A stretch of 23,670 nucleotides of DNA from a virus: IMG/VR virus record IMGVR_UViG_3300042878_000262, positions 1 through 23,670 of that record; one strand, given 5' to 3'. The notes beneath the pieces were generated by a model. The model saw only the letters and a program-made list of their open reading frames with translations. It was not told where the DNA came from and did not search any database. This document shows, piece by piece, positions 1,992 to 5,247 of the stretch. Position 1 is the first letter of the stretch. The number at the start of each line of letters is the position of its first letter. Made by a program: the position numbers and the translations under genes.

Positions 1992-2329
1992 CTAAATTTA
2001 CTGAGGCAACGGGTATTGATAAAGTAGTTCATTTCATTGCTGGGGATGATTGTAATTGTAAACAAAGACAAGAGAAACTAAACAAGTTATTCCCTTACAA
2101 AACACCTGAATGCTTAACGGAAGTAGAACATGAACATCTAACTTACTTACTTCCTAAAATGACGGTAAGAGTTAGACCTTCGGAACAATTGCAATTTTTA
2201 AAGGTTTACAATAGAGTGTTTAAAACCAATGAGCAACCAACTTCATGCGCTTCTTGTTTGAACGACATGTTACGTAAAATGAAACAAGTATACAACGCTT
2301 ATGAAAATGAGGGAGCGTTTTTAGGATGA
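1952..2329 (+). CDS. Conserved phage protein with two Cys pairs
   Basis: 125 aa. It opens with KGFGDTVAKFTEATGIDKVV, then DDCNCKQRQEKLNKLFPY at about residues 32-49, and ends with a CASC pair near residues 99-102. I recognise the DTVxxxTxATGIxxxV...DCxCxxRxxxLNxLFPY pattern as a recurring small protein of Bacteroidota phages, usually near the terminase, without assigned function. The two Cys pairs could bind zinc, which is inference. Start ATG 1952 lies in AAAATATGG, the A-rich context used by many genes here; the 40-nt overlap with the sigma factor is the longest in the window apart from the frameshift pair. Its end overlaps the ParB-like gene by 4 nt (ATGA). Confidence 0.6.
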   Translation: MAKRISKGFGDTVAKFTEATGIDKVVHFIAGDDCNCKQRQEKLNKLFPYKTPECLTEVEHEHLTYLLPKMTVRVRPSEQLQFLKVYNRVFKTNEQPTSCASCLNDMLRKMKQVYNAYENEGAFLG

Positions 2330-2922
2330 ATAAAGTAGTAAAAATATCAGAGGTTAAACTAAACCCAAACAATCCTCGATTAATTAAAGATGATAAGTTT
2401 AAAAAATTAGTTAAGTCTATTGAGGAGTTTCCTGAAATGTTAGATATAAGACCAATAGTGGTTAATGCTGACATGGTAATATTGGGAGGTAATATGAGAT
2501 TTAAAGCGTGCAAAGAGGCTGGCTTAAAAGAAATACCTATCATTATTGCAGACAACCTTACAGAAGAACAACAACGTGAATTTTTGATAAAAGATAATAC
2601 AAGCGGCGGTGAGTGGGATTTTGAAATGTTAGCTAATGAATGGGACGTTGAGCAGTTGGAAGATTGGGGGTTAGATGTGGGTGGTTTTGATGTTGATGAA
2701 GAAGATATGTCTGATGATTTTAGTTTACCTGATGGAGATAAAGCACCGTTTCAACAAATGACTTTTACACTTGCTGATGAACAAGCGGAGCAAATAAAAA
2801 ATGCTATTTCAGATATTAAAGAAACGGAAGAGTATAAGTATGCTGAAACAATGGGTAATGAAAACTCAAATGGTAACGCACTTTATTTAATTATTATGCA
2901 ATGGGCAGAGCAAAGGAAATAA
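2326..2922 (+). CDS. ParB/Srx-like nuclease-domain protein
   Basis: 198 aa. Residues 1-95 fit the ParB-like N-terminal fold: VVKISEVKLNPNNPR (KxxVxxLxPNPxNPR), then DKFKKLVKSIEEF, RPIVVNADMVILGGNMRFKACKEAG (the conserved 'V.dG..R..A.kxlG' motif, here GGNMR), EIPIIIADNLTEEQQREFLIKDN. In Bacteroidota phages such proteins often sit just before the terminase and are thought to act on DNA, as nuclease, CTP-binding clamp or partner of DNA-modification genes. The rest (about 100-198) is acidic (DVDEEDMSDD) and lacks a recognised domain. It overlaps the Mom-like gene by 22 nt, implying translational coupling and perhaps a shared job. Domain call is good; activity is unknown. Confidence 0.72.
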   Translation: MNKVVKISEVKLNPNNPRLIKDDKFKKLVKSIEEFPEMLDIRPIVVNADMVILGGNMRFKACKEAGLKEIPIIIADNLTEEQQREFLIKDNTSGGEWDFEMLANEWDVEQLEDWGLDVGGFDVDEEDMSDDFSLPDGDKAPFQQMTFTLADEQAEQIKNAISDIKETEEYKYAETMGNENSNGNALYLIIMQWAEQRK

Positions 2923-3623
2923 TCGTTAAGGTTATACCTTCTAAAATTGCAAATGAGTTTGTAAAAAAACATCATTATAGCGGTAAAAATGTTTCAAACA
3001 GTTCATTGCATTTTGGGTGTTTTCTTGATAATAAATTACATGGTGTTTTAAGTTATGGTAGCCCTTTAGATAAATCAAAAGTCTTACCATTAGTTCAGCC
3101 AAGTTTATGGAATGAAATGCTAGAATTAAATAGAATGGCTTTTGACGAGTATTTACCAAAGTATTCAGAAAGCAGATGTATTGCAATTTCAATTAGATTA
3201 ATTAAAAAGAATGCTCCACATATAAAATGGATTTTAAGTTTTAGTGACGGTACACAATGCGGAGACGGTACGATATATAGAGCTAGTGGGTTTCAATTAA
3301 CAAACATAGTTACAAATAAAAATACTTGTAAATTACCAAACGGAAGCGTAATTCATAAAATGACATTAGAAAGCTCACCACTTCAAAAACGTACAGAATT
3401 AAACAATAGGAGTTATTACGAATTAACAGATGGTAAATATAATTTTAATAAATACGTAGAAGAAGTAAATGGAGAAGTGTTAATCGGTTATCAATTAAGA
3501 TATATTTACCTAATTGATAAAACTTGCAAAATAACAGTTCCGGTATTACCATTTAGTAAAATAGATGAAATGGGAGCAGGAATGTATAAAGGTGAAAAAA
3601 TAACACTTGCAGAAAGAAAATAA
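2901..3623 (+). CDS. Mom-like (GNAT-fold) DNA adenine modification candidate
   Basis: 240 aa. The N-terminal two thirds follow the pattern of phage Mom-like proteins: ANEFVKKHHYSGK at residues 17-29, FGCFLDNKLHGVLSYGSP at 38-55, the LELNRM segment at 74-79, and ILSFSDGTQCGDGTIYRASGF at 111-131, equivalent to the family's 'SxADxxQGHxGxIYqAxxF'. Phage Mu Mom is a GNAT-fold enzyme that converts adenine in DNA to N6-carbamoylmethyladenine and so blocks host restriction; homologues in Bacteroidota phages have not been tested as far as I know. Here the Gln-Gly-His of that motif reads Gln-Cys-Gly. Residues 170-240 carry a Tyr-rich C-terminal extension (YQLRYIYLI). It is coupled to the ParB-like gene by a 22-nt overlap. 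An alternative is another GNAT-type acyltransferase. Confidence 0.65.
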   Translation: MGRAKEIIVKVIPSKIANEFVKKHHYSGKNVSNSSLHFGCFLDNKLHGVLSYGSPLDKSKVLPLVQPSLWNEMLELNRMAFDEYLPKYSESRCIAISIRLIKKNAPHIKWILSFSDGTQCGDGTIYRASGFQLTNIVTNKNTCKLPNGSVIHKMTLESSPLQKRTELNNRSYYELTDGKYNFNKYVEEVNGEVLIGYQLRYIYLIDKTCKITVPVLPFSKIDEMGAGMYKGEKITLAERK

Positions 3624-3635
3624 TTACTATATTTA
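3607..3635 (+). promoter_or_regulatory. Bacteroidota-type promoter before the tRNA-like RNA
   Basis: TTG at 3607-3609, an 18-nt spacer, then TATATTTA at 3628-3635. The expected start point near 3641-3643 is about 6 nt before the tRNA-like structure and about 90 nt before terS. The -33 element lies within the last codons of the Mom-like gene. Confidence 0.45.
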
Positions 3636-3648
3636 CAAAACAATATAT

Positions 3649-3719
3649 GCGTGGCTAGCTTAAATAAAAAGCATTGAACATTCCAGTTCAAAGATGGGGT
3701 TTACAACCACCGCCACGCT
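3649..3719 (+). ncRNA. tRNA-like cloverleaf RNA upstream of terS
   Basis: Seen: a perfect 7-bp closing stem, GCGTGGC (3649-3655) with GCCACGC (3712-3718). Then the two-base linker TA; a 4-bp arm GCTT/AAGC (3658-3661 with 3669-3672, loop AAATAAA); one base (A3673); a 6-bp arm TTGAAC/GTTCAA (3674-3679 with 3686-3691); a 4-nt spacer; and an imperfect arm GGGGTT with AACC-A-CC (3696-3711, one bulged A). Arm order and linkers match a tRNA. Against a working tRNA: no GG in the D loop, no TTCRA in the T loop, an anticodon arm of 18 nt (8-nt loop CATTCCAG if the stem is 5 bp), and no encoded CCA. It could be a decayed tRNA, a tRNA mimic, or a structured element linked to packaging because it lies 16 nt before terS. 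A promoter-like site sits just upstream. Confidence 0.5.
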
Positions 3720-3734: not shown

Positions 3735-4094
3735 ATGGCATACGACAAACAAAAGATATTTGAACAAGCAAAAGAAATGATAGTTAAACATAAACTATTT
3801 TTTATTGAGGATATTGTCGCTTTTTTACCTATTGCAAAGAAAACATTTTATGAGTATTTTCCTATTGAAGGTAACGAAAGTAACGAGCTAAAAGGATTGT
3901 TAGAAACAAACAGAATCGAATTAAAGGTTTCAATGCGTTCAAAGTGGTACAAATCGAACGCTCCAGCTTTACAGATGGCTTTGATGAAGTTAATAGCAAC
4001 ACCTGAAGAACTACGTAAACTATCAATGACACATACAGCAGTTGAGGAAGTAGAAAAACCAATATTCAAACAGCTTGATTTAGATGTTGATTAA
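3735..4094 (+). CDS. terS: Terminase small subunit
   Basis: 119 aa. The packaging subunit that recognises phage DNA and hands it to the large subunit. Seen: an N-terminal helical part with HKLFFIEDIVAFLPIAKKTFYEYFP at about residues 19-43, which reads as a helix-turn-helix ('FFIEDIVAFLPxSKxTFYExFP' recurs in Bacteroidota phage small subunits). Then NELKGLLETNRIELKVSMRSKWYKSNAP and ALQMALMKLIATPEE, the C-terminal helices usual for the family. The start ATG follows TAAAAAT. It overlaps terL by 11 nt, the standard arrangement. The preceding gap holds the tRNA-like element, whose DNA or RNA could be what this protein binds; that is inference only. Confidence 0.82.
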   Translation: MAYDKQKIFEQAKEMIVKHKLFFIEDIVAFLPIAKKTFYEYFPIEGNESNELKGLLETNRIELKVSMRSKWYKSNAPALQMALMKLIATPEELRKLSMTHTAVEEVEKPIFKQLDLDVD

Positions 4095-5247
4095 GACAAC
4101 AGCACAAACAAAGATAGCAAAGCTAAAAAAAAGACTAAGGATTGTACAGGGTGGAACATCAAGTTCAAAAACCTTTACAATCCTCCCTTTTTTAATTCAA
4201 TACGCATTACAGCATCCGAAGTCAGAGATATCCGTTGTATCAGAAAGTATTCCACATTTAAAGCGTGGTGCATTAAAAGACTTCCTTAAAATAATGGATT
4301 GGACGGGTAATCTAAACCATAACAATTTCAACAAATCTAATCTTACTTATAAGTTCACAAACGGCAGTTATATTGAGTTCTTTAGTGCTGACCAACCCGA
4401 CAAATTAAGAGGTGCAAGGCGTGATATTTTATTTATAAATGAGTGTAATAATGTAGCGTTTGAATCATACCAACAATTAGCAATACGTACAAAGAAATTT
4501 ATTTATTTAGATTACAATCCTACAAATGAATTTTGGGTTCATACTGAATTAATCGGTTCGGAGATAGCAGATTTCACGATATTAACTTATAAAGACAATG
4601 AAGCCCTAGATAATGCAATCGTAAAAGAGATTGAAAGAGCAAAAGAAAAGGCTAAGACGTCCACGTATTGGGAAAATTGGTGGAACGTTTATGGGTTAGG
4701 GCAAATAGGAAGTTTAGAGGGTGTTATTTTCAACAATTGGAAAACAATAGATACTATTCCAGACGATGCAAGGTTGCTTGGTTATGGTGTCGATTTTGGT
4801 TACACGAATGACCCGACAGCAATAGTTGAAATATACAAATGGAACGAGCATAGAATAATTAATGAGATATGCTACAACAAAGGTTTAAGCAACTCACAGA
4901 TTGCAAAGTATATCAACACTAAGCTACCTTGTTATTGTGATAGTGCAGAACCTAAATCAATAGCAGAATTAAGAATGTACGGAGTGAATGCTCATGCAGT
5001 AACTAAGGGTGCTGATAGTATTAACTTTGGTATACAAATAATGCAAGAAGAAAGTTATCTGGTATCAACTAAATCACTAAATTTGATAAATGAACTTCGC
5101 AAGTATGCGTGGGATAAAGATAAGAAAACAGGCGCTAAACTAAACAAGCCGATTGACTCATGGAACCACGGAATTGACAGCGTACGTTATCACGAAATGG
5201 AAACAATAGGTTTAAAAAGAAATAAGGGTATATATGGAATCAGGTAA
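4084..5247 (+). CDS. terL: Terminase large subunit (PBSX-like ATPase/nuclease)
   Basis: 387 aa. The motor that pumps DNA into the prohead and cuts it. ATPase domain: Walker A GGTSSSKT at residues 23-30, Walker B ILFINE at 115-120 with Glu120 as probable catalytic base, and a coupling motif LDYNPT at 142-147. RNase H-like nuclease domain: GVDFGYTNDPTA at 235-246 (Asp237), CDSAEP at 285-290 (Asp286) and NHGIDSVRYH at 361-370 (Asp365) give the three metal-binding acidic residues. The length is on the short side but both domains are complete. It overlaps terS by 11 nt and the next small gene by 14 nt. Unusually, the portal gene is not next; it lies about 14 kb downstream. Confidence 0.95.
   Translation: MLIKTTAQTKIAKLKKRLRIVQGGTSSSKTFTILPFLIQYALQHPKSEISVVSESIPHLKRGALKDFLKIMDWTGNLNHNNFNKSNLTYKFTNGSYIEFFSADQPDKLRGARRDILFINECNNVAFESYQQLAIRTKKFIYLDYNPTNEFWVHTELIGSEIADFTILTYKDNEALDNAIVKEIERAKEKAKTSTYWENWWNVYGLGQIGSLEGVIFNNWKTIDTIPDDARLLGYGVDFGYTNDPTAIVEIYKWNEHRIINEICYNKGLSNSQIAKYINTKLPCYCDSAEPKSIAELRMYGVNAHAVTKGADSINFGIQIMQEESYLVSTKSLNLINELRKYAWDKDKKTGAKLNKPIDSWNHGIDSVRYHEMETIGLKRNKGIYGIR

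Follow-up and report, generated by a model that had tools for sequence, protein, structure and literature searches.

A glycine tRNA-like gene adjoining mom in phage genomes and its proposed role as glycine donor for DNA-adenine modification

The window analyzed here, a 23,670-nucleotide stretch of viral DNA (IMG/VR record IMGVR_UViG_3300042878_000262), carries a tRNA-Gly-like gene directly downstream of a gene for Mom, the DNA-adenine modification enzyme. The encoded RNA folds into a cloverleaf whose pairs covary among homologues, and it accompanies mom in two enzyme lineages and in several phyla. Its signals for charging with glycine are kept, and features needed for translation are lost. It is probably a dedicated non-translational tRNA-Gly, charged by glycyl-tRNA synthetase (GlyRS), that hands its glycine to Mom. 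Nearly the same confidence is placed in the wider reading that Mom is an aminoacyl-tRNA-dependent DNA-modifying enzyme, with this purpose-built, phage-encoded tRNA-Gly as glycine donor.

Gene neighborhood

Mom modifies adenine in DNA, and its product is a glycinamide (carbamoylmethyl) group on N6. By family and predicted structure, the gene upstream of the RNA (Table 1) encodes this enzyme. The gene product matches PF25680 with an E-value of 2.7e-47 and 161.5 bits (gathering threshold 27.1), and we take this neighbor to belong to the phage Mu DNA-adenine modification family. For the predicted structure (pLDDT 90) the best match is Mu Mom (PDB 8bv8) with a Z-score of 20.8, the next listed reaching 13.4. 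Apart from Mom, the structure neighbors among the matches listed are CoA-type acetyltransferases. No aminoacyl-tRNA-dependent GNAT enzyme is named among the 50 structure matches listed, which is evidence in neither direction. The C-terminal tail of the window Mom, with a GAGMYKG motif, lies beyond the part that aligns with Mu Mom and is strongly conserved in the subfamily. The tail is a candidate RNA-binding element. The ParB_N-domain gene that precedes mom may direct or assist the modification; a ParB/sulfiredoxin gene is also located upstream of mom in phage Y8A.

Table 1. Coordinates of the mom locus and of the RNA element in the window
Feature	Position	Strand	Description	Evidence
ParB-domain gene	2326..2922	+	overlaps the start of mom	PF02195, E 4.6e-9
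mom	2901..3623	+	DNA-adenine modification enzyme, GNAT fold	PF25680; phrog_1384; predicted model compared with Mu Mom 8bv8
C-terminal tail of Mom	3549..3623	+	GAGMYKG motif	conserved in subfamily
TATATTTAC	3628..3636	+	weak match to the Bacteroidota -7 element TAnnTTTG	sequence
tRNA-Gly-like gene	3649..3719	+	71 nt up to the discriminator base	RNAfold z -5.04; Rfam tRNA 29.7 bits; covariation; family model 80.3 bits (window RNA itself among the model's sequences)
Acceptor stem	3649..3655/3712..3718	+	7 bp, then TA linker	fold
D-type arm	3658..3661/3669..3672	+	4 bp, then 1-nt spacer	fold
Anticodon-type arm	3674..3679/3686..3691	+	6 bp	fold
Anticodon-like TCC (glycine)	3682..3684	+	C35 = 3683, C36 = 3684	lies in anticodon-type loop; almost every homologue has NCC
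T-type arm	3696..3699/3707..3711	+	4 bp, one unpaired A	fold
Unpaired A	3709..3709	+	3' strand of T-stem	family-conserved; none in the ordinary host tRNA-Gly genes compared
Probable terS	3735..4094	+	neighbor, outside the mom/RNA system	precedes terL (4084-5247)

A preliminary description of this DNA had placed a promoter-like site 6 nt before the RNA. This is not borne out, as a search upstream of the window RNA found no sigma-70 promoter. A possible promoter, from sequence, is TATATTTAC. The exact TAnnTTTG is absent from the window copy and from most same-strand copies, and the same-strand copies, the window included, probably share the mom transcript. In the opposite-strand copies of the first set, TAnnTTTG stands 4-19 nt before the RNA in 22 of 24 distinct cases, with 7% in shuffled sequence. 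The RNA is found on either strand relative to mom and is opposite in 24 of 80 loci of the second Mom lineage. Since it occurs in both orientations and the opposite-strand copies carry a promoter element, the RNA is concluded to act in trans.

Structure of the RNA element

The cloverleaf is confirmed as a real tRNA-like structure, and the arms and coordinates first drawn by eye stand as they were drawn. In RNAfold the minimum free energy structure and the centroid are identical (-25.8 kcal/mol), and none of 200 shuffled sequences is equally stable. The acceptor, D and anticodon arms are reproduced exactly, and the T-type arm is closed by two extra pairs. The Rfam tRNA model (RF00005) aligns end to end in a 161-base search with a marginal 29.7 bits (gathering threshold 29); a search of the whole window at the gathering threshold reported nothing, the RNA included. 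ARAGORN likewise made no call. Among annotated phages, no DNA relatives of the window were detected at blastn sensitivity.

The anticodon-type loop, given as 8 nt in the preliminary description, has a size of 6-8 nt that is set by whether C3679 and G3686 form a pair. As had been noted, neither the D-loop nor the T-loop has its consensus bases. The loops read AAATAAA and TTTACAA, so that the elbow motifs (D-loop GG and T-loop TTCRA) are absent from the window copy; some homologues retain them. In place of a regular 5-bp T-stem there are four pairs and an unpaired A. The early doubt about an ordinary tRNA function is well founded.

The complete glycine identity set is present in the window RNA: G1-C72, C2-G71, G3-C70, U73 (position 3719), C35 and C36. 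These are the glycine identity elements of bacterial GlyRS.

Conservation and lost translation features

Covariation among the homologues is strong. In the family alignment, 18 of 20 pairs are changed on both sides and pairing holds in 96.7% of the cells; slid controls reach 51% at most. Across the 36 aligned RNAs, the inner arms and pairs 4-7 of the acceptor stem covary freely. Pairs 1-3 are fixed as G-C, C-G and G-C (with one A-U at pair 3), and U73 is fixed as well. Among 108 distinct members, G1-C72 and C2-G71 are each found in 108, G3-C70 in 102 and U73 in 106, counts to be read with the training of model R1 on members bearing the identity set, which may favor similar matches. In the second lineage all four elements are present in 52/52 RNAs. 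Anticodon positions two and three remain CC, the clear exceptions being locus L106 and one copy in L182. The RNA of L106 (5775-5844) is linked to mom and has the full glycine acceptor signals, with an anticodon-type loop that lacks CC. A CCA tail is encoded in 34 of 50 distinct genomic copies.

The T-stem departs from that of ordinary tRNAs in a constant way. Every one of the 60 distinct RNAs in the first set has the unpaired A (58 when a strict pairing rule is applied), as do 52/52 of the second. Ordinary host tRNA-Gly genes from 8 genomes have regular T-stems without it. In the RNAs of bacterial genomes the feature is less uniform, some Bacillota copies having a T instead or a regular stem. 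The region of the T-stem concerned is one that EF-Tu contacts. Many Pseudomonadota copies are only 65-67 nt long and have no D arm; in an alignment of this class 13 of 19 pairs are changed on both sides and 90% of the cells are paired. The first anticodon letter drifts, and about 27 copies carry ACC; tRNA-Gly(ACC) was universally missing in a published survey (PMC8007984). The conserved charging signals, together with the decayed translation features, make the RNA look built for glycine charging and not for protein synthesis.

Several loci deviate in gene or RNA number. Psychrobacter phage vB_PmaS_Y8A (L162) has two tandem D-armless tRNA-Gly-like genes, at 3162-3226 and 3234-3299, between mom and terS. 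Its published genome reports no tRNA genes and lists a second Mom-like gene, ORF69 (PMC10434257). In the clostridial-type loci L176, L178, L179 and L181-L185, a second mom directly follows the first and is itself followed by a tRNA-like gene. L182 has two RNAs in tandem, with regular T-stems. Just past mom in L171 (match ends at 2223) lies a tRNA-like stretch, seemingly without an anticodon arm, that does not start with GCG.

Linkage of the RNA to mom

The partner of the RNA is the upstream mom and not terS. Starting from mom, the RNA adjoins the gene in 80/80 of the nearest viral-contig relatives, of which 35, with the window, had been used to build the family model. A second Mom lineage, with 31% identity over 143 aa, contributed no loci to the model, and here too the RNA lies beside mom in 80/80. 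Starting from terS, with some loci having short upstream flanks, both the RNA and mom are found in the same 7 of 80 homologues (chance about 3e-10), and the RNA in 0/73 of those without mom. The link to terS and packaging in the preliminary description is therefore not upheld, as 73 of the 80 homologues have neither mom nor the RNA.

Starting from the RNA, three sequence patterns retrieved 129 viral loci. In 124 of these mom lies within 200 nt, and in three more a mom end is found at the contig edge, giving 127/129. The remaining two have no mom. In L364, a 137-kb virus, the T-stem lacks the extra A by eye. In L352 (3749-3820) no mom is present between the neighboring genes, and the T-stem letter is G in place of A; this RNA may be a remnant left when mom was lost. 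The very same RNA sequence accompanies two very different Moms, one in L077 and the other in L150 and L157. Therefore, the pairing of RNA and mom outlasts replacement of the enzyme.

In bacterial genomes, about 50 of 61 Mom loci have the RNA and about 11 do not. These loci belong to the Bacteroidota, Bacillota, Pseudomonadota, Acidobacteriota, Verrucomicrobiota, Planctomycetota, Actinomycetota and others. The RNA-bearing members cluster in the Mom protein tree, with 12 changes versus 28 in shuffles, many inner branches of the tree being weak. None of 14 distant Mom loci has the RNA next to mom. These comprise Mu of E. coli and loci from phages of Pseudomonas, Listeria, Enterococcus, Aeromonas, Acinetobacter, Corynebacterium, Methylophilales, Lactococcus, Staphylococcus, Porphyromonas and Elizabethkingia. 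The Methylophilales locus has one weak match about 1 kb upstream of mom. Given its absence beside mom in about 11 of the 61 close genomic loci and in every one of the 14 distant loci, a dedicated RNA is not required by every Mom. Where no RNA lies close by, the donor may be host tRNA-Gly or something else.

Ordinary tRNA-Gly genes in whole genomes are picked up by model R1 as well, with scores reaching about 54 bits; two further criteria, the T-stem feature and adjacency to mom, were therefore applied. The E-values of the home-made models are rough. The sets of loci contain near-copies, and distinct counts are used where relevant.

Proposed mechanism

Once expressed, the RNA would be charged by the host GlyRS; this step is proposed because the glycine identity set is kept. 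The altered T-stem and elbow would exclude the charged RNA from EF-Tu and the ribosome. Mom, with its GNAT fold, would accept the glycyl group and transfer it to the adenine N6 in phage DNA. In this transfer, N6 would attack the glycyl ester, generating N6-glycyladenine. The free glycyl amine would then probably attack the purine C6, displacing N6 as an amide and yielding the glycinamide adenine. Against a tRNA donor speak the CoA-type acetyltransferases among the structure neighbors listed and a review in which the donor for Mom is given as an acyl-CoA, for example glycyl-CoA (PMC7824862). The tRNA-donor proposal would replace such a donor for the RNA-linked Moms. No tRNA tied to Mom was found in searches of openly licensed PMC papers; within that literature the element is apparently undescribed, as had been suspected.

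Comparison with known systems

A direct precedent is the non-translational tRNA-Gly(UCC) of S. aureus, which is charged by GlyRS, poorly bound by EF-Tu and supplies glycine for the pentaglycine bridges of the cell wall (PMC8007984). The RNAs share the UCC type and the variant D and T loops; in the window copy the loop reads TCC and both motifs are lost. However, the S. aureus tRNA is chromosomal, serves the cell wall and has no tie to a DNA-modification gene, whereas the Mom-linked RNA is viral, often D-armless and marked by the conserved extra A in the T-stem.

The com-mom system of phage Mu has an enzyme of the same family and, by prediction, the same fold as the window Mom. Mu mom has no adjoining RNA, whereas the close subfamily of the window Mom combines its conserved C-terminal tail with a dedicated tRNA gene. 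The GNAT toxins (TacT and related), a further precedent, share the GNAT fold with Mom and are reported to recognize glycyl-tRNA. They acetylate charged tRNA and thereby stop translation, whereas the Mom-linked tRNA is proposed to donate glycine to DNA. Phage translational tRNA genes are likewise tRNA-type genes in phages, and in more canonical Mom-linked homologues a tRNA-Gly is called. Unlike them, the Mom-linked RNA is a single gene fixed beside mom, with a degenerate elbow, an altered T-stem and anticodon letters that are not used in glycine decoding.

Alternative explanations

The RNA could instead be a target, that is a tRNA or glycyl-tRNA modified by Mom or by an activity linked to Mom, or a decoy shielding host or phage from a toxin or defense enzyme that attacks tRNA-Gly. 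GNAT toxins are reported to acetylate glycyl-tRNA, and the acceptor stem is reported to guide the choice of tRNA-Gly by FaRel2, a toxSAS with an implicated role in antiphage immunity. A decoy would, however, have no need to stay with mom across two enzyme lineages, and Mom enzymes are known for modifying DNA. A donor better explains why the elbow has been lost while the charging signals are retained, and a target or decoy is considered unlikely.

A scaffold or regulator that binds Mom, or that senses glycine levels for control, without donating glycine, is rather less likely. It would account for an RNA beside mom in all viral loci from both Mom lineages, and the translation of Mu Mom is reported to be under RNA-level control by Com (PMC6483171). 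A cis element is ruled out by the opposite-strand copies, and the fixed identity set with U73, as well as the CCA of many copies, would be left unexplained.

It is quite improbable that the RNA is an ordinary elongator tRNA-Gly for GGA/GGG codons, located near mom by chance. In homologues closer to the canonical form ARAGORN reports a tRNA-Gly(TCC), and the window uses GGA 115 and GGG 55 times among 6528 codons. Yet the linkage to mom is near-perfect and does not follow phage type, and a chance neighbor would not follow two Mom lineages. The lost elbow motifs, the T-stem insertion, the D-armless copies and the ACC loops likewise argue against decoding.

A packaging RNA or a pac site (both suggested in the preliminary description), or an integration site, is rejected with near certainty despite the position directly before terS in the window, since at terS loci the RNA occurs exactly where mom does, lies on either strand relative to mom, has its own promoter-like element in opposite-strand copies and shows wide sequence variation in which changes compensate one another. 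Among the options first offered, a tRNA mimic comes nearest, but the evidence favors a glycine-accepting tRNA.

Implications

The RNAs linked to mom evade standard tRNA finders, as in the published genome of Psychrobacter phage Y8A. The family provides a large natural set of minimal tRNAs, released from the ribosome, that would show what GlyRS alone requires. Since the modified base was first described, the source of Mom's glycinamide group has, to our knowledge, been an open question. If the proposal of a dedicated tRNA-Gly is true, this donor is named in a specific and testable form. We know of no earlier DNA modification that is fed by an aminoacyl-tRNA. The modification by RNA-linked Moms would then be the first supplied in this way, with the amino acid of a tRNA ending up in DNA.
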